Positions 705-8,262 of a stretch of 9,300 nt of DNA are shown here, piece by piece; position 1 is the first letter of the stretch, and each line of letters opens with the position of its first letter. Position numbers and translations under genes: made by a program. Source of the stretch: a bacterium (lineage in GTDB: Bacteria; DYJV01; JALVYZ01); the NCBI GenBank assembly GCA_027037705.1, contig JALVYZ010000282.1:1-9300 (forward strand), written 5' to 3'. The notes beneath the pieces are model-generated. The model ran no database searches. It saw only the letters and a program-made list of their open reading frames with translations, and was not told the origin of the DNA.

Positions 705-719
705 TTTGAATCAAAGGTG

Positions 720-766
720 GAAGGCGTCAGCCGAGCACCTAAAACTTTAAGTGCTCGGGATTCTGG
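720..766 (+). repeat. Dispersed hairpin repeat, copy 1 (GAAGGCGTCAG box plus stem-loop)
   Basis: GAAGGCGTCAG at 720-730 is followed directly by a perfect 8-bp stem: CCGAGCAC at 731-738 pairs with GTGCTCGG at 751-758 across a 12-nt AT-rich loop. The same box and a related stem-loop recur at 4869-4919. No U-run follows the stem, so it is not a standard intrinsic terminator. Its place between the binding-protein gene and livH suggests an mRNA processing or stabilising structure that would let the binding protein be made in excess over the membrane parts. That role is inference. Confidence 0.75.
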
Positions 767-800
767 AGTTATTATGAATAGTTGAGCTATTGGTGCTGGG

Positions 801-894
801 TTATGGTTAATAAATGGTTAGTTTTAGATTAGTGAAAGTTAGTTAATGTTAGTGAAAAATTAAAAACCAATACCAACACTAACACTAACACTTA
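801..894 (+). repeat. Phased TTAGT/TTAAT motifs and inverted repeat ahead of livH
   Basis: TTA-type hexamers begin at 807, 818, 829, 839 and 849, so they are spaced 10-11 bp. They are followed by three hexamers in the complementary sense: CACTAA at 877-882, CACTAA at 883-888 and CACTTA at 889-894. Positions 843-854 and 877-888 match as inverted repeats at 11 of 12 positions around a 22-nt A-rich loop, so the transcript could form a hairpin ending a few bases before the livH Shine-Dalgarno. A role in translation or transcript processing is inferred. The block could equally be simple-sequence drift. Confidence 0.6.
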
Positions 895-904
895 GAGGTA
901 AAAA

Positions 905-1768
905 GTGGAAGGGTTTGTACTTAATCTTTTAAATGGTTTAAGCTGGGGAATGTTACTGTTTTTGATATCAGTAGGATTGACTACAGTATTTGGAGTCATG
1001 GGCATACTTAATTTTGCCCATGGCTCTTTTTATATGTTAGGAGCTTACTTTTGTCTTGAAATAATGAAATATTTTAATTCTTTTTGGATAGGTTTGATTG
1101 TTGCTCCTTTATTTGTTGCTATTTTAGGATTTATTATTGAAAAAACATTATTGAATAAAATATATGCAAGAGATGTAATATTCCAGCTTTTATTAACTTT
1201 TGCAATACTACTTATTTTAGATGATTCAGTTAGATTTATTTGGGGGCCAGGATATCATGTTATAAACCCACCAGATATTCTTTCTGGTTCAGTTAAAGTA
1301 TTCACTCATTCATATCCTGTATACAGATTTTTCTTAATTATTTTAGGTCCTGTTGTGGCAGTTATCTTGTGGGGATTTTTCCACTTTACAAAAGCTGGAA
1401 AAATAATTAGAGCTGTTGCTTCTGATAGAGAAATGGCTGAAGGAGTAGGTTTAAATGCTCCATTAGTGTTTAGTCTTGTTTTTGCTTTTGGATGTTGGCT
1501 TGCAGGTTTGGGAGGTGCATTAGCAAGTCCTATTGAGAGTGTTGCTCCATCTATGGGAGAAAAAATTATTATTGAAAGTTTTATAGTTGTTGTCATTGGT
1601 GGAATGGGTAGCTTTCCAGGAGCATTTATTGGAGCTTTAATATTAGGACTTGTTGAATCATTTGGAACAAATTTAATTGGTGAAATTCAAATGGCTATAC
1701 CTTATCTTGTTTTAGCAATCATTTTACTTGTAAAACCTACAGGTTTATTCGGAAAGAAAATAGCATGA
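905..1768 (+). CDS. livH: Branched-chain amino acid ABC transporter permease LivH
   Basis: Inner-membrane permease of the Liv system that, with LivM, forms the channel passing the ligand from the binding protein into the cytoplasm. The product has 287 residues, close to the usual 290-310, and is almost entirely hydrophobic. Family marks are NFAHGSFYMLGAY starting at residue 36, the cytoplasmic coupling loop RAVASDREMAEGVGLN that contacts the ATPase, GGMGSFPGAFIGALILG, and the C-terminal KPTGLFGK. The start is a GTG at 905, supported by AGAGGT at 894-899 with 5-nt spacing and by the N-terminus VEGFVLNLLNGLSWG, which matches the family. The end overlaps livM by 4 bp (ATGA). It is separated from the binding-protein gene by 200 bp of repeat-rich DNA, unlike the tight spacing further down. 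Confidence 0.95.
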   Translation: MEGFVLNLLNGLSWGMLLFLISVGLTTVFGVMGILNFAHGSFYMLGAYFCLEIMKYFNSFWIGLIVAPLFVAILGFIIEKTLLNKIYARDVIFQLLLTFAILLILDDSVRFIWGPGYHVINPPDILSGSVKVFTHSYPVYRFFLIILGPVVAVILWGFFHFTKAGKIIRAVASDREMAEGVGLNAPLVFSLVFAFGCWLAGLGGALASPIESVAPSMGEKIIIESFIVVVIGGMGSFPGAFIGALILGLVESFGTNLIGEIQMAIPYLVLAIILLVKPTGLFGKKIA

Positions 1769-2712
1769 AAAAAGTTTTTATATTTTTATTAATTCTATTT
1801 TTTCTTTTTTTGCCTAAGATTTCTTCTGAATACTGGACTTTTATAGCTATTGAAGTTTTAATTATGGGTTTTTTTGCTATGAGTTTTAATCTTTTAATGG
1901 GATATTCAGGTTTATTATCATTTGGTCATGCAGGGTTTTTTGGCGTTGGAGCTTATACAACAGCTATTTTACTTCAACATGGGTTTAATTCTTTATTCTT
2001 AATTTTATTAATTGCAATTATAGTATCTTTAATTTGTTCAGTTGTTATTGGATACCTTTCAGTGAGGCAGGATGAGATATATTTTGCAATGATTACTCTT
2101 GGTTTTGGAATGATGTTATACACAATAGCTCATAACTGGACAGATTTTACTGGAGGTTCAGATGGACTTCCATTAATGAATGAGCCTATACTCAATTTAT
2201 TTGGGAAGAAAATATCTTTAATTTCACCAGAAAATTTATATTTTTTTACTTTTGTGATTGTTTTTATTGGAATTTTGATTTTATGGAAAATAATAAATTC
2301 TCCATTTGGATTAATTTTAAAAGGGATGAGAGAGAATAAAAATAGATTGAATTTTTCAGGTGGAAATATCTCTTCTATAAGATTATTTGCATTTACCATT
2401 TCAGGGACTTTATCTGGAGTGGCTGGGTTTTTATTCTGTCTTTTCAGTAGCATGGCAACACCAGATTTTTTACATTGGAGTTTTTCAGCAAAACCTGTAA
2501 TTATGTCAATTTTAGGTGGAGCTTGGAATTTTTATGGACCAATGGTTGGTGCTGCTATATTTTTTGCATTGGAGCAGTTTATAAAAATGTATACAGATAA
2601 CTGGATGATTTTTTTAGGAATTTTATTAATTCCAATTACAATTTTATTCCCAAAAGGAGTGCTTGGAACAATTTATGACTACGCAAAAAAAAGATACAAT
2701 TCTAAAAGTTGA
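1765..2712 (+). CDS. livM: Branched-chain amino acid ABC transporter permease LivM
   Basis: Second inner-membrane permease of the Liv system. The product has 315 residues, a normal length for the short form of LivM. The first hydrophobic segment (about residues 4-17) is followed by the family signature GYSGLLSFGHAGFFGVGAY at residues 46-64. The coupling loop is GMRENKNRLNFSGGNISSIR, where other members have a RENE-type loop. ILGGAWNFYGPMVGAA lies near the C-terminus. Its ATG overlaps the livH stop (ATGA at 1765-1768), so translational coupling is likely; a weak purine stretch, GGAAAG, lies at 1751-1756. The 3' end runs into livG by about 38 bp. Confidence 0.95.
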   Translation: MKKVFIFLLILFFLFLPKISSEYWTFIAIEVLIMGFFAMSFNLLMGYSGLLSFGHAGFFGVGAYTTAILLQHGFNSLFLILLIAIIVSLICSVVIGYLSVRQDEIYFAMITLGFGMMLYTIAHNWTDFTGGSDGLPLMNEPILNLFGKKISLISPENLYFFTFVIVFIGILILWKIINSPFGLILKGMRENKNRLNFSGGNISSIRLFAFTISGTLSGVAGFLFCLFSSMATPDFLHWSFSAKPVIMSILGGAWNFYGPMVGAAIFFALEQFIKMYTDNWMIFLGILLIPITILFPKGVLGTIYDYAKKRYNSKS

Positions 2713-3442
2713 TAATATTCATCATTCTTATGGTAAGTTTAAAGTATTAAATGGAATTTCTCTTGAAGTTAAAAGAGGTGGGATAACAGCTTTAATTGGG
2801 CCAAACGGTGCAGGAAAAACCACATTTTACAATGTTATCTCAGGGAAATTTCCACCAACAAGAGGGAAAATTTATTTTAATAATATTGATATTACAGGAT
2901 TTCCGCCTCATAAAATAGTTAAGTTAAAGCTGCTTCGTTCGTTTCAAATAACCAATATTTTTCCAGAGTTGACTGTTGAAGAAAATATTTTAATCCCACT
3001 TATTTTAAAAAGAGGAAAATGTTATTCTTTTTTTAAAGATTTAAAAAAATATAAAGAATTTTATATTGAAGCAGAGAATATTATGAATAATTTAGGCCTG
3101 ATTGAATTTAAAAATAGAACTGTCAGTGAATTAGCTTATGGTGATAAAAGACTTGTTGAAATTGGGATCACATTTGCAAGTGATCCTGAAATGATTTTAC
3201 TTGATGAGCCAACAGCAGGGATGAATCCTGCTGAAACTGAAAGAACTGTAAATTTAATTAAAGACTTATCTGAAAAATCAAATGTAACATTTTTTATAAC
3301 TGAACATGATATGAATGTTGTTTTTTCTGTTTCAGAATATATTTTTGTTTTACATCAGGGAAGTTTATTAGCTCAGGGGACTCCAGAAGAGATTAAGAAT
3401 AATCAAGAAGTTAAAGAGGCTTATCTGGGAGGCTCTGTTTAG
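2675..3442 (+). CDS. livG: Branched-chain amino acid ABC transporter ATP-binding protein LivG
   Basis: Cytoplasmic ATPase that powers the Liv transporter as a heterodimer with LivF. Using the ATG at 2675 the product is 255 residues, matching the family. Visible motifs are Walker A GPNGAGKTT (residues 42-50), Q-loop Gln91 in SFQITNIFPELTVEEN, signature LAYGD (153-157), Walker B MILLDEP (173-179), D-loop AGMN, and switch His211 in ITEHD. The LAYG form of the signature is normal for LivG, whereas the following DKRLVEIG departs from the common QQRRLEIA. An upstream in-frame TTG at 2663 is a possible start, but GGAGT at 2656-2660 is only 2 nt from it, too close. The ATG has no strong Shine-Dalgarno either (GGAA at 2665-2668). 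Either start lies within livM, so coupling is likely. Confidence 0.94.
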   Translation: MTTQKKDTILKVDNIHHSYGKFKVLNGISLEVKRGGITALIGPNGAGKTTFYNVISGKFPPTRGKIYFNNIDITGFPPHKIVKLKLLRSFQITNIFPELTVEENILIPLILKRGKCYSFFKDLKKYKEFYIEAENIMNNLGLIEFKNRTVSELAYGDKRLVEIGITFASDPEMILLDEPTAGMNPAETERTVNLIKDLSEKSNVTFFITEHDMNVVFSVSEYIFVLHQGSLLAQGTPEEIKNNQEVKEAYLGGSV

Positions 3443-4141
3443 ATGTTAAAAGTTGAAGATATTCATGTTTACATTGGAGATAGTTATATTATTCAGGGGA
3501 TTTCACTTGAAGTTAAAAAAGGAGAAATAGTTGCTTTACTTGGTAGAAATGGTGCTGGAAAAACAACAACATTTAAAAGTATTATTGGATATCTGCCACC
3601 AAAAAAAGGAAATATTTTTTTTGAAAATGTAAATATTACAAAAAATAAAGTATTTCAAAATGTTAGATTGGGAATAGGTTATGTCCCAGAAGATAGAAGG
3701 CTATTTCCTGATTTAACAGTAAGAGAAAATTTTGAAGTCTCTTTCTTACCGCCACACGAAGGAATTGAGCCATGGACAATAGATAGAATTTTTTCAGAGA
3801 TTCCAATTGTTGAAAAATTACAAAATAAAAAAGGTGGAGAATTAAGTGGTGGCGAGCAGCAAATTGTTGCAATAGCAAGAGCTTTATGTTGTAATCCAAA
3901 ATTACTATTATTAGATGAGCCTTGTGAAGGACTCGCTCCGGTGATAGTGGAAGAACTTGGTGAAATTATTTTAAAATTAAAACAACACATCCCAATTTTG
4001 ATGTCTGAACAGAATGCTCATTTTGCTCTAAAAATTTCAGATAGAGGATATGTTATTGATAAAGGGAAAATTAAGTTTTCTGGCTCAGCAAATCAACTTA
4101 AAGAGAATAAAGAAATTCAGGAAAGATATTTAGCTGTTTAA
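3443..4141 (+). CDS. livF: Branched-chain amino acid ABC transporter ATP-binding protein LivF
   Basis: Second ATPase of the Liv transporter. The product has 232 residues, the usual LivF size. Motifs are Walker A GRNGAGKTT (34-42), the LivF-typical GIGYVPEDRRLFPDLTVREN (77-96), signature LSGGEQQ (134-140), Walker B LLLLDEP (154-160) followed by CEGLAP, and SEQNAHFAL where most ABC ATPases have the switch histidine. EQN at this place is the norm for LivF. The ATG directly follows the livG stop (TAG at 3440-3442) with no gap, and GGGAGG at 3427-3432 inside livG gives a good Shine-Dalgarno with 10-nt spacing. It is the last gene of the operon. The 84-bp gap to bioD shows no clear terminator. Confidence 0.95.
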   Translation: MLKVEDIHVYIGDSYIIQGISLEVKKGEIVALLGRNGAGKTTTFKSIIGYLPPKKGNIFFENVNITKNKVFQNVRLGIGYVPEDRRLFPDLTVRENFEVSFLPPHEGIEPWTIDRIFSEIPIVEKLQNKKGGELSGGEQQIVAIARALCCNPKLLLLDEPCEGLAPVIVEELGEIILKLKQHIPILMSEQNAHFALKISDRGYVIDKGKIKFSGSANQLKENKEIQERYLAV

Positions 4142-4189
4142 TATAATCCTGTCCTTCTAAAGAACCATTATTTTACCAAATTATATTTA

Positions 4190-4217
4190 TTGACTCTGCT
4201 ATTTTTTATGTTATAAA
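4190..4217 (+). promoter_or_regulatory. Candidate sigma70-type promoter of bioD with near-leaderless start
   Basis: TTGACT at 4190-4195 and TATAAA at 4212-4217 are separated by 16 bp. The -10 ends 8 nt before the bioD ATG at 4226, so transcription would start at about 4224-4226. No Shine-Dalgarno precedes the ATG, which agrees with a leaderless or near-leaderless mRNA. It also separates bioD transcription from the liv operon. Confidence 0.6.
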
Positions 4218-4225
4218 TATTTTCT

Positions 4226-4858
4226 ATGAAAAGATTCTTTGTTGCAGGAACAGATACTGAGGTTGGTAAAACTTATGTTACATGTTTAATCTGTGAGTAC
4301 TTTAAAAATAAAGGTTACAAAGTAGGAGCTTTAAAACCAGTTGAGTCAGGTGTTAAATATTTAGAAAATCCAGATTATAAAAGAATTGCAAAAGCAAGTG
4401 GTGATAAAGAAAAGCCTATCTATACATTAACTGAACCTCTTGCCCCATATATTGCAGCTAAAATTGATAATGTAAAAATTGATAAAAGGAAAATTATTGA
4501 TTTTTATAAAATGAATACATCAAAAGAAAATTATGATTACTATTTTATTGAGGGAGCAGGTGGATTATTTGTCCCATTAACAGAAAATTTACTCTATATT
4601 GATTTAATAAAAGAATTTAACTGTGAAGTAATTTTAGTTGCAAGGACAAATCTTGGGACTGTTAATCATACTCTTTTGTCAATTGAGGCATTAGAAAAAA
4701 GATCAATTCCAATAAAAGGAATAATTTTAAATGAAGTTTTTGAAACAGATAAAAAAATGATTGAAGAGAATAAAAATATGATTGAAAAATTTTCTGGGTT
4801 TAAAGTCTTAACTGTTATAAGAAAAAATCAGGAAAAAATTTTTCATATTGAGTTATAA
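4226..4858 (+). CDS. bioD: Dethiobiotin synthetase BioD
   Basis: Cytoplasmic enzyme of biotin synthesis. It closes the ureido ring of 7,8-diaminopelargonate using CO2 and ATP to give dethiobiotin. The product has 210 residues, slightly shorter than the usual 220-230. Motifs are P-loop GTDTEVGKT (8-16), KPVESG with the conserved Lys37 and Ser41 (37-42), Asp50, EGAGG (109-113), the ARTNLGTVNHTLL segment (139-151), and Asn169 in ILNEVF, the expected nucleotide-base contact. The C-terminal loop normally reads like GxIP but here reads LTVIRKN, so the usual proline is absent and the tail is short. This may slightly alter base binding, and other NTPs are accepted by some BioDs. No other bio genes are in the window, so this is an orphan copy here. 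Its own promoter lies immediately upstream. Confidence 0.93.
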   Translation: MKRFFVAGTDTEVGKTYVTCLICEYFKNKGYKVGALKPVESGVKYLENPDYKRIAKASGDKEKPIYTLTEPLAPYIAAKIDNVKIDKRKIIDFYKMNTSKENYDYYFIEGAGGLFVPLTENLLYIDLIKEFNCEVILVARTNLGTVNHTLLSIEALEKRSIPIKGIILNEVFETDKKMIEENKNMIEKFSGFKVLTVIRKNQEKIFHIEL

Positions 4859-4868
4859 TTATTAGGCT

Positions 4869-4919
4869 GAAGGCGTCAGGCAAGCATCAAAAAAATATTA
4901 GGTGCTCTGGGAGTCGGGA
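4869..4919 (+). repeat. Dispersed hairpin repeat, copy 2 (GAAGGCGTCAG box plus degraded stem-loop)
   Basis: GAAGGCGTCAG at 4869-4879 is identical to 720-730. It is followed by AGCATC (4883-4888), which can pair with GGTGCT (4901-4906) through one G-U wobble, again around a 12-nt AT-rich loop. The 3' flank reads GTGCTCTGGGAGTCGGG, against GTGCTCGGGATTCTGG in copy 1. The shared box, loop length and flanks show that the two are diverged copies of one element. This copy begins 10 bp after the bioD stop and has no U-run. Confidence 0.7.
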
Positions 4920-4927
4920 AATGTTCA

Positions 4928-4961
4928 ATGAAAAATGAATAATTAAAAATGAAAAATTATT
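4928..4961 (+). repeat. AT-rich direct and inverted short repeats
   Basis: ATGAAAAAT occurs at 4928-4936 and again at 4949-4957. AATAATT at 4938-4944 is an inverted repeat of AATTATT at 4955-4961. This links the hairpin repeat to the 10-bp array that follows. No function can be assigned. Confidence 0.45.
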
Positions 4962-4970
4962 ACGACAACA

Positions 4971-5030
4971 AATAACTACTAATAACAATGAATAACAATA
5001 AATTACTATTAATTACAACAAATAACGATT
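4971..5030 (+). repeat. Six degenerate 10-bp tandem units, AAT(A/T)AC plus 4 variable bases
   Basis: Six consecutive units in exact 10-bp register begin at 4971, 4981, 4991, 5001, 5011 and 5021. The first six bases are AATAAC in units 1, 2, 3 and 6 and AATTAC in units 4 and 5; the last four bases vary. A constant hexamer at helical spacing could bend DNA or present protein-binding sites on one face. It may equally be a neutral minisatellite. A short open frame across this block (4988-5173) runs into the tRNA and is not a gene. Confidence 0.7.
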
Positions 5031-5040
5031 ATCATATTTT

Positions 5041-5072
5041 CGCATATACGCATCCACGCATTTACGCATGTC
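5041..5072 (+). repeat. Four 8-bp tandem units, CGCAT plus 3 variable bases
   Basis: CGCAT recurs at 5041, 5049, 5057 and 5065 in exact 8-bp register, with variable trinucleotides ATA, CCA, TTA and GTC. It lies 45 bp upstream of the tRNA. With only four units of 8 bp it is far too short and too regular for a CRISPR. Confidence 0.7.
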
Positions 5073-5094
5073 CATATTTACAAAACACGGGGCA

Positions 5095-5108
5095 CGAATC
5101 CCGAATCC
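5095..5108 (+). repeat. Direct duplication CGAATCC x2
   Basis: CGAATCC at 5095-5101 is repeated at 5102-5108, just upstream of the tRNA. GAATCCCGA at 5096-5104 is the reverse complement of TCGGGATTC at 755-763 in hairpin repeat copy 1, so this may be an inverted fragment of the same repeat family. Nine bases is weak evidence. Confidence 0.4.
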
Positions 5109-5116
5109 CAAATATA

Positions 5117-5713: not shown

Positions 5714-6529
5714 TTATATTTTTTTCGGTAAATATGATATTCTTTCAACCAAAAATTTTCGATCATCAAATAGAAACCTCATAGCATCTTGAATATCTTT
5801 CTTATAAAGTCCAGCTCCAGGATCTTGAGAATATCCTACAACTCTAAAACCCTTATAATATATATCTAAAGCTGGATCTGAAAGGTATCTCCTATGGTCA
5901 TAATAATAAGAGTGTGTTTCTTTTGCGACTTTAAATTGATTTTCCTCATTAAATCCAGAGATATCAATAAGGTATAAATCAAGTTTAACACCATATTCTT
6001 CTTTAATCCTATCAGCAATTTTTTTTGCTAATATCATTAAACCTATGATGTGATTATTTCTATTAGTCATTGTTTTAGAATTATACCACATAATTATATG
6101 GTTTCCGCCATTATATGATTTAAATGGTTCTTTAATAGAAAAAAATTCATCATCTCTCTTTTCTTTCTTAATTGGCAACCAAGACATAATCTCATCTTGA
6201 TATTTCTCAGGGTTGATAGCTACATTAAACTCAACATCATAGAGATTAAACTTTGGAAAATCATATTCTTTTTTCTTAAAAGGAACATTTCCTATATATT
6301 TAATATCCTGTGCAAAAATCTCATTGTTTAACAAGGAGTTAATCTTTTCTGCTAAAGTAGGATATTGATTCTGTTGAGAAACAACTATCTGCTTAGGTTC
6401 TTTAGGAACAACATACTTATTTATTAAATCTCCAGCATAATTTAATACAGCCCAAATTCCAGCAGTAAGTAATATTTTTTGAAATAAACCTAATACTTTT
6501 TTATTGTTTAAAATATCAATTCTAATCAT
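5714..6529 (-). CDS. Membrane-anchored protein of unknown function
   Basis: An intact 271-residue ORF on the minus strand. I do not recognise a family. Residues 12-33 (VLGLFQKILLTAGIWAVLNYAG) form one likely N-terminal membrane anchor or uncleaved signal, interrupted by one lysine. A Gln/Pro-rich linker (about 38-60) follows, then a soluble domain rich in Lys, Asp and Tyr. The C-terminal half includes ETHSYYYDHRRYLSDPALD and FRVVGYSQDPGAGLYKK, but no known catalytic motif is evident. The ATG at 6527-6529 has no Shine-Dalgarno. A good promoter lies just upstream on the minus strand and predicts a leader of only a few bases. It is divergent from the PD-(D/E)XK gene with a 152-bp shared regulatory gap. 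Whether the two act together is unknown. Confidence 0.75.
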   Translation of the reverse strand: MIRIDILNNKKVLGLFQKILLTAGIWAVLNYAGDLINKYVVPKEPKQIVVSQQNQYPTLAEKINSLLNNEIFAQDIKYIGNVPFKKKEYDFPKFNLYDVEFNVAINPEKYQDEIMSWLPIKKEKRDDEFFSIKEPFKSYNGGNHIIMWYNSKTMTNRNNHIIGLMILAKKIADRIKEEYGVKLDLYLIDISGFNEENQFKVAKETHSYYYDHRRYLSDPALDIYYKGFRVVGYSQDPGAGLYKKDIQDAMRFLFDDRKFLVERISYLPKKI

Positions 6530-6681: not shown

Positions 6682-8262
6682 ATGAAATTAAAAAATCTTC
6701 CAATTGGTCAATCTTCTTTTGAAAACATTATAAAAAATAATCAAATTTATGTTGATAAAACCAAAAGAATTTATGAATTAATAACTTCAACGCAGTTTAA
6801 TTTTTTATCCCGTCCAAGAAGATTTGGGAAATCATTACTTGTATCAACTCTTAAAAATATTTTTCTTGGAAATAAAGATTTATTTAAAGGACTGTGGATT
6901 TATAATTCAGACTGGGAATGGGAAAAACATCCTGTAATTGTAATTGATTTTAACTCTATTGTTACTGACACAGTAGAAAATTTAATCTATTCTATAGGAA
7001 AATGTTTTGATAATAAGGCAAAGGAATTTGGAATATCCCTTGAAGAAAGTCTTTTAAAGTTAAAATTTAAGGAACTTATAGTAAAAGTTTACGAAAGGAC
7101 AAAAAAAGAAGTAATAATTTTAGTGGATGAATATGACAAGCCGATAATCTCCCATCTTGGAGAAGGAGAAGAGAGATTAGATATAGCGAAGAAAAATAGA
7201 GAGGTGTTAAAAAGTTTATTTGGGACAATGAAGGATGAGCAGGTAATAAGCAGGTTGAGATTTGTATTATTAACAGGAGTGAGCAAATTTTCAAGAGCAG
7301 GAGTATTTTCTGACCTTAATAATCTCAATGACATTTCAATGGATTCAATTTACAGTGATATTTTAGGAATAACTGAAGATGAACTTGAAAAATATTTTCA
7401 TGATTACATTAAAGTTTGCGCTAATGAATTTGGAATAACATATGAGAAAATGAAAGAAAAAATAAAAGACCATTACAATGGATATAGATTTTCAAGGAAA
7501 AATGTAAAAGTTTACAATCCATTTTCAATATTAAATTTTTTTAGTAAAAGAGAGATCAAAAACTACTGGTTTGAGAGTGGTACGCCAACATTCTTGATTA
7601 AATTAATTAAAGATAAAAACTTTTATCTTCCACAAGCAGAGAATCTTTTAGTTGAGGAAAGCATATTTTCAACCTATGAACTTGAACATCTAAATCCATC
7701 TGCTTTACTATTTCAGACAGGCTATTTAACAATAAAAGATTACGATTTTGAAACAAATGAGTATGTGTTGAGTTATCCTAATAAAGAGGTGAAATATTCG
7801 TTTTTAAAGATACTTTATAAAAGTTATGTAGAAGAGTATGATGGAGAGAATCTCTATTTAAAATTAGGCAAATATTTACGAGCTGGAGATGTGGAAAGTT
7901 TTATTGAAACTGTAAAGTCAATATTTGCAGGAATTTCTTACAGTGTAGGAAGCAAATTAAATGAGGCAAATTTTCATACAATATTTTATTTAATGGTAAA
8001 TGCAGGTGGGACACCAGCAGAGATGGAACTTTTAACATGTGAAGGAAGGATAGATATGGTAGTGGAAACAAAGGACAGAATTTACATAATGGAATTCAAA
8101 TGCAATCAAAGTGCCGAAAAAGCAATAGAACAAATGAAAGAAAAAAACTATGCAGAAAAATATAAAAATAAAGGCAAGGAAATAATTTTACTTGGAATAA
8201 ATTTTGACACTAAAAAAAGAAATATAGCTGATTGGAAGAAATTTATATTGTCTAAATTTTAG
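6682..8262 (+). CDS. AAA-ATPase-like / PD-(D/E)XK nuclease-fold protein of unknown role
   Basis: A 526-residue protein of the family with an N-terminal AAA-ATPase-like domain (Pfam AAA-ATPase_like) and a C-terminal PD-(D/E)XK domain (PDDEXK_9, formerly DUF1703). The start fits the family: LPIGQSSFENII, then YVDKT at 23-27. The Walker A variant RPRRFGKS is at 44-51 and Walker B VIILVDEYDKP at 144-154. A conserved arginine/serine loop, LLTGVSKFSRAGVFSDLNNL, follows, then HYNGYRF and YNPFSILNF. The nuclease-like core is GRIDMVV with Asp458, then MEFK with Glu471 and Lys473, then Gln484 in EQMKEKNYAEKY. All core residues are present, so catalysis is plausible. The family is strongly amplified in many anaerobes and its biological role is not established; links to mobile DNA or defence are speculation. 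It stands alone and is divergent from an unknown membrane protein. Confidence 0.9.
   Translation: MKLKNLPIGQSSFENIIKNNQIYVDKTKRIYELITSTQFNFLSRPRRFGKSLLVSTLKNIFLGNKDLFKGLWIYNSDWEWEKHPVIVIDFNSIVTDTVENLIYSIGKCFDNKAKEFGISLEESLLKLKFKELIVKVYERTKKEVIILVDEYDKPIISHLGEGEERLDIAKKNREVLKSLFGTMKDEQVISRLRFVLLTGVSKFSRAGVFSDLNNLNDISMDSIYSDILGITEDELEKYFHDYIKVCANEFGITYEKMKEKIKDHYNGYRFSRKNVKVYNPFSILNFFSKREIKNYWFESGTPTFLIKLIKDKNFYLPQAENLLVEESIFSTYELEHLNPSALLFQTGYLTIKDYDFETNEYVLSYPNKEVKYSFLKILYKSYVEEYDGENLYLKLGKYLRAGDVESFIETVKSIFAGISYSVGSKLNEANFHTIFYLMVNAGGTPAEMELLTCEGRIDMVVETKDRIYIMEFKCNQSAEKAIEQMKEKNYAEKYKNKGKEIILLGINFDTKKRNIADWKKFILSKF

Follow-up and report, generated by a model that had tools for sequence, protein, structure and literature searches.

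Tandem short words in near-fixed order and orientation, with a dispersed palindrome, in the intergenic spacers of a JALVYZ01 bacterium

The stretch of DNA described here (the window) comprises 9,300 nucleotides of contig JALVYZ010000282.1 (C282), which belongs to a bacterial metagenome-assembled genome (MAG) of 2.05 Mb in 496 contigs that is 92.8% complete, with a GC content of 26% in the sampled part. Two spacers of the window, one between livK and livH and the other between bioD and a tRNA-Ser(CGA) gene, are filled with short sequence words that recur in tandem, and each spacer also holds a palindrome. A preliminary description of the window had read them as two copies of a single composite element, made up of an 11-base box, a hairpin with a 12-nt loop and helically phased AT-rich hexamers. 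Several of its observations are accurate: the 11-mer (GAAGGCGTCAG) is an exact match at 720-730 and 4869-4879, both copies are intergenic, lying 15 and 10 bases past a stop codon, and the phased words [GA]TTAGT and AATWAC recur at the regular steps given below. It had missed the CACYAA hexamers at 866-895, the GGAGT words after both hairpins and the 8-base CGCAT array at 5041-5069. The features of the two spacers are as follows:

705..904, + strand: spacer of 200 nt between livK and livH, occupied by word arrays
715..730, + strand: GAAGG-type heptamers (AGGTGGAAGGCG) and TCAG, containing the box at 720-730
731..758, + strand: palindrome CCGAGCACCTAAAACTTTAAGTGCTCGG with one mismatched pair (model R1, 61.3 bits)
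757..769, + strand: GGGATTCTGGAGT, a single GGAGT-type word immediately past the palindrome on its 3′ side
817..854, + strand: [GA]TTAGT words at 817, 828, 838 and 848 (steps 11, 10, 10)
866..895, + strand: CACYAA hexamer array (ACCAATACCAACACTAACACTAACACTTAG), 9 bases 5′ of the livH start
4859..5116, + strand: bioD to tRNA-Ser(CGA) spacer, filled with word arrays
4864..4879, + strand: GGCTGAAGGCGTCAG, GAAGG-type words and the box at 4869-4879
4880..4910, + strand: decayed palindrome GCAAGCATCAAAAAAATATTAGGTGCTCTGG (model R1, 47.1 bits)
4909..4919, + strand: GGGAGTCGGGA, GGAGT-type heptamers
4926..4960, + strand: AT-rich AATGAAAAATGAATAATTAAAAATGAAAAATT words
4971..5026, + strand: six AATWAC words at 4971, 4981, 4991, 5001, 5011 and 5021 (step exactly 10)
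5041..5069, + strand: CGCAT words at 5041, 5049, 5057 and 5065 (period 8)
5093..5109, + strand: CACGAATCCCGAATCCC, a 7-base word type just 5′ of the tRNA

Throughout the genome, co-directional genes are separated by mosaics of short tandem words in near-fixed order and orientation, as surveyed over about 318-319 kb in 45 contigs, some of which were picked for carrying CACYAA arrays. The words include the heptamers GAAGGTN, GGAGTNN and GTGAANN, the hexamer CACYAW, the 8-base ACGCATNN, and the roughly 10-base AATWACNNNN and GGTTAGTTRA. Their periods are 7 (GAAGG, GGAGT, GTGAA, CACGAA and ATAGCC), 6 (CACYA), 8 (CGCAT/ATGCG), 10 (AATWAC) and 10-12 (GTTAGT); with periods of 6, 7, 8 and 10 side by side, helical phasing is not a general feature of the arrays. 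Searches of the whole genome returned 33 matches to CACTAACACTAACAC with one mismatch allowed (0 in the control), 112 to GGAGTNNGGAGT (54+58, against 0+1 in the control) and 14+23 to a longer CACYAW array pattern (0 for the reversed control). Arrays of GGAGT and CACYAAC lie mostly in spacers, and within co-directional spacers the words keep to one strand, with sense to antisense counts of 34:3 for GGAGT, 31:3 for CACYAAC and 22:1 for GAAGG, at least the antisense CACYAAC exceptions stemming from one spacer on C63 (L067), which is inverted in its entirety. CACYAAC was found in 34 co-directional versus 4 divergent cases and GGAGT in 37 versus 3, as raw counts not normalised for spacer length; divergent spacers are generally free of arrays, and the divergent matches are confined to the leader side of a single spacer.

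The order in which the words follow one another is equally regular. From the stop codon it runs GAAGG, palindrome, GGAGT, GGTTAGT, GTGAA, AT-rich, AATAAC, CACYAAC, CGCAT and finally the ribosome-binding site. This single order, chosen on the same data, holds for 151 of 175 word pairs. The cleanest pairs place GGAGT before CACYAAC (12/12), before AATAAC (10/10) and before the AT-rich words (8/8), while CGCAT is preceded by all other words. In essence, words rich in G and poor in C come after the stop codon, and words rich in C and poor in G come before the ribosome-binding site. From the 5′ end to the ninth tenth of 36 word spacers the G fraction falls from 0.34 to 0.06 and the C fraction rises from 0.08 to 0.20, with both remaining flat in 25 control spacers. 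CACYAA arrays end no more than 23 nt from the called start in 11 of 20 cases, and a ribosome-binding site is present in 14 of the 20 spacers.

G001, the sole genome of the same order among 60 searched (the remainder share the domain only), preserves the gene order livK-livH-livM-livG. Its livK-livH spacer measures 17-23 nt (the shorter length applies to the called start, the longer to a TTG start) versus 200 nt in the window, and contains a ribosome-binding site and no word; the comparison of orthologous sites that the preliminary description had proposed thus finds the composite stretch absent. Across 20 conserved co-directional neighbour pairs, five carry words in this MAG, and these five junctions span 200, 123, 96, 92 and 89 nt here versus 17, 9, 60, 27 and 23 nt in G001, where all five are without words. 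Overall, GGAGT words number 30 versus 2 and CACYAA words 26 versus 0 (about 318 kb here versus 562 kb in G001), and the spacers of G001, taken as a set, show no enriched words of such kind.

We lean towards the view that the two spots are ordinary cases of genome-wide ordered and oriented word arrays plus a palindrome, with growth by slippage or copying and an effect at the RNA level. For the origin, function and order of the arrays we infer a scheme in which spacers would have been filled with degenerate short tandem words since the divergence from G001, the arrays growing by slippage and local copying, the palindrome being occasionally copied to new sites, and the arrays being tolerated only inside co-transcribed spacers. 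The most likely RNA effect would be that the 3′ half, being rich in C and poor in G, leaves the ribosome-binding site unpaired. Where complementary words occupy both halves, as in three spacers of C6, the two may pair into an intercistronic hairpin, insulating or stabilising the cistrons on either side. These three spacers consist of a stop codon, [GGAGTNN]n, a AAATAAAAA-type loop, [CTCCNGA]n and a ribosome-binding site, and two of them were folded, with z-scores of -5.8 and -6.2. They lie in one conserved gene cluster (L051:11168-11263, 14923-15014 and 15879-15967) and bear near-identical two-sided GGAGT hairpins that are not found in G001. Among 36 spacers, the halves match their own partner better than the halves of other spacers (permutation p 0.001). 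A general RNA hairpin hypothesis was rejected, as array spacers fold like other spacers, and because most word spacers fold like shuffles, a hairpin role is kept for the mirror arrays only; hairpins are one use of the arrays at most.

A number of points weigh against this favoured account. Slippage alone does not explain the fixed order of unrelated words, and most word spacers fold no better than their shuffles (mean z of -1.1 for array spacers). The only relative is distant, with 51% identity in AroA and 64% in LivH, and because it is single and distant, gain here and loss in G001 cannot be polarised. Gene calls in the spacer survey followed a simple longest-ORF rule, the word order was defined on the data used to score it, and word densities are biased upward because the contig sample was enriched for CACYAA arrays.

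The alternative that survives best is that the arrays are neutral filler, in which slippage-prone words accumulate where they are harmless, and order and strand reflect what is tolerated near stop codons and ribosome-binding sites rather than any function. The arrays are degenerate, vary in unit number and occur beside genes of unrelated function, no general folding signal is seen, and no regulatory role was found for similar repeats (Rehm et al., 2015; PMC4692102). However, slippage alone does not account for eight unrelated word families standing in one order, nor for the recurrence of that order at unlinked sites, and CACYAA arrays share a particular unit (CTAACACYATCACYAACACTAACACT) across spacers and phyla. 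Neutral filler is rather unlikely. Together with the sharing of spacers by several word families in a set order and direction, the word-free junctions in the relative at five conserved places make the old question of slippage debris versus working RNA a testable one.

Comparable arrays occur in other lineages. More than 104 stretches match CYAWCACYAACACTAACACT among the GTDB r220 matches listed; simple microsatellites and coding sequence account for some of them, and many come from Aminicenantes and Acidobacteria MAGs, where they are accompanied by companion words and TTAGTG...CACTAA pairs. The strand rule, with G-rich words after the stop and C-rich words before the start, is followed by 18 of 22 Aminicenantes arrays and 8 of 9 Acidobacteria arrays, as judged by the nearest gene and rough gene calls. 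Since distant lineages have a closely similar CACYAW array (CTAACACYATCACYAACACTAACACT) and follow this strand rule too, it could be proposed that an undescribed process writes ordered, stranded word arrays between co-transcribed genes and is common to, or has spread among, the phylum of this MAG, Aminicenantes, Acidobacteria and some phages, a proposal we regard as doubtful. Nothing relevant was found in the literature on Aminicenantes and tandem repeats. The strand rule itself seems to extend to unrelated candidate phyla and could be a widespread trait of operon spacers that has escaped notice. Among the individual sequences, L136, L156, L171 and L198 (Aminicenantes and Acidobacteria MAGs) contain TTAGTG arrays and distant CACTAA arrays with matching unit variants, forming near-perfect long inverted arrays. 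The viral (phage) contigs L242, L244, L245, L249 and L251 carry two-sided GGAGTC arrays between genes, with two nested word types in L242.

The palindrome is best understood from its other copies, which give a near-perfect 28-bp consensus, CCGAGCACCTAAA-NN-TTTAGGTGCTCGG, with a 12-13-bp stem and a 2-4-nt loop (C359 reads CCGAGCACCTAAA-AC-TTTAGGTGCTCGG). The first window copy has one C/A mismatch and the second is decayed, and the 12-nt loop of the preliminary description is a decayed stem that was formerly paired. A covariance model (R1) built from nine copies and used to search the MAG gave 26 listed matches, many being the same palindrome on the opposite strand. They come down to 11 separate places at E<1e-4 (C359, C282 twice, C461, C285, C103, C305, C341, C154, C340 and C124), with weaker matches on C94 (E 0.002) and C60 (E 0.1), those on C103, C124, C94 and C60 being newly found. 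The palindrome is thus a dispersed, mostly intergenic family, as had been suggested, with about 13 places in the genome; none was found in G001, and the palindrome pattern had 0 matches in viral contigs. G-U pairing in the second window copy is real, but the selection on the hairpin that it was taken to hint at is not borne out, as the fold of this copy is no more stable than that of shuffles (z -0.38) and the nine copies show no covariation, the one pair changed on both sides being matched by 282 of 500 shuffles. Three findings had been named beforehand as telling against such a family, of which the absence of covariation and a copy inside a conserved gene are partly borne out, while a restriction to two copies is not.

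The copy inside a conserved gene is that on C285, which lies antisense and in frame within aroA (EPSP synthase, Pfam E 6e-105); its product is 431 residues long (413 in G001), and about 12 residues at the palindrome (STFNQAPNILDARLTPST) are additional. A peptide, SST(F/S)xLPPST, recurs in the products of two aromatic amino-acid genes on the minus strand, trpE (L042:4360-5835) and aroA (L042:6609-7904), where GAAGG words lying antisense encode it. The TrpE segment NSSTSHLPPST was rejected as an insertion, the linker of G001 being of equal length there, and a second array in aroA was rejected as a net insertion, the linker being replaced with no net gain relative to G001.

This in-frame copy and the dispersal over about 13 places would suit a mobile element of the repetitive extragenic palindromic (REP) or Rickettsia palindromic element (RPE) type, belonging to the CGTC-tagged superfamily and inserting into spacers and genes. 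Di Nocera et al. (2013; PMC3733652) describe CGTC-tagged REPs that have no transposase of their own and are in some cases intragenic; among known short dispersed palindromes, these and the Rickettsia palindromic elements come closest. CGTC or TGTC stands two bases 5′ of the stem in five of nine aligned copies here. Such REPs are defined by a stem of 8-9 bp, a loop of 4-5 nt, a CCA-type tail and an unpaired CGTC (or TGTC) end (PMC3733652). The present palindrome differs in its stem of 12-13 bp, its loop of 2-4 nt, the lack of a CCA tail, its position within word arrays and its optional tag, which is variant or absent in the other aligned copies; GTAG, the tag of REPs mobilised by RAYT, was not found beside the stem in any of them. 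The Y1 transposase (PF01797) has 0 matches in the MAG and was found in 5 of 14 control genomes, and no target-site duplication was seen by eye at the palindrome copies. A REP/RPE origin is improbable, and with neither constant boundaries nor target-site duplications seen, the REP/BIME-like or MITE-like identity given in the preliminary description (BIME, bacterial interspersed mosaic element; MITE, miniature inverted-repeat transposable element) is not supported.

One or two palindrome copies lie in cobalamin riboswitches. On C199, an insert of about 80 nt lies between the arms CCGAGCACCT and AGGTGCTCGG and adjoins a cobalamin riboswitch match, the aptamer of which scores barely above the Rfam threshold (34.7 versus 31.5 bits), while the C124 copy (L102 around 1514) lies in a similar cobalamin-riboswitch-type leader, judged by eye from its sequence. 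Both leaders, that on C199 being at L072:10107-10205, have very long variable stems with tips that bear the CCGAGCACCT palindrome or its relatives. Together with positions after stops and before starts, these two leaders could be taken to indicate a cis-regulatory RNA, or a terminator or promoter, at both window spacers. Such a role is very unlikely, as an Rfam scan of the window finds only the tRNA, no promoter-like or terminator-like site exists in either spacer, no T-run follows the palindrome on its 3′ side, and covariation is lacking.

The box does not stand as a unit by itself: a GAAGG-type array leads into the palindrome, and the box is the final 7-base word of that array rather than a signal of its own. 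A GAAGG-type box precedes the stem in about half of the palindrome copies. GAAGGCGTCAG occurs four times in the MAG versus 0 for its reversed control, and at five places when up to three mismatches over 20 bases are allowed. Although it is the sole GC-rich 11-mer repeated in the window, the pair within the window counts for little by itself, because an equal coincidence arose in 13 of 300 order-2 Markov windows. The box-plus-arm pattern had 0 matches in 84,980 GTDB r220 genomes, from which the MAG's own and near genomes may be excluded, and a looser box pattern had 11 matches in viral contigs, about the chance expectation. A MITE- or BIME-like composite moved as one unit is hardly credible and was rejected: several spacers do combine box, palindrome and words, and G001 lacks the entire stretch at livK-livH, but the components occur apart, with palindromes lacking the box, TTAGT- and AATWAC-type hexamers at many other spacers lacking box or palindrome, most word spacers lacking both, and parts that vary in number, content and ends, with no constant length or terminal inverted repeat.

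Elsewhere in the window lie a gene for an AAA-ATPase-like / PD-(D/E)XK_9 protein (6682-8262) and an opposite-strand ORF of 271 aa without a Pfam match (5714-6529). Similarity of the window to phage DNA is confined to low-complexity matches.

In their tandem intergenic units, co-directional placement and strand rule, the arrays agree with known short tandem-word repeats of the GGGNATC, STRR and TAACTGA types. STRR sequences, said to have been reported by Mazel and colleagues in 1990, are reportedly degenerate 7-base tandem intergenic repeats of heterocystous cyanobacteria, and serve as a lead only, their words being different. The kind of repeat is already known, because the layout is that of the G-rich heptamers GGGNATC and GGGGAYT of Xanthomonas and Nostoc (Rehm et al., 2015; PMC4692102) and is close to that of the TAACTGA direct repeats of marine Beggiatoaceae, cyanobacteria and Bacteroidetes (MacGregor, 2015; PMC4679880). 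The Xanthomonas and Nostoc repeats likewise have 7-base units in few copies per site, lie between co-directional ORFs and are avoided between divergent ones, and show their G-rich strand just past the stop and their C-rich strand just before the start. In contrast, several unrelated word families share each spacer here, in near-fixed order and with periods of 6, 7, 8 and 10 together, and GGAGTNN lacks the run of at least three G per unit that the quadruplex argument needs, the G-runs in words such as GGAGTCGGGAGTGCGGAGT having only 2-3 G. TAACTGA repeats resemble the arrays in being short direct repeats that lie mostly just upstream of starts in scattered lineages, with a suggested translational role, but consist of one heptamer, whereas the layout here is two-sided and multi-word, usually with a ribosome-binding site present. 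No published description of the multi-word ordered form was found. Short-word repeats of bacterial spacers have so far been described singly, while in this genome at least eight families share spacers in a fixed order and direction.

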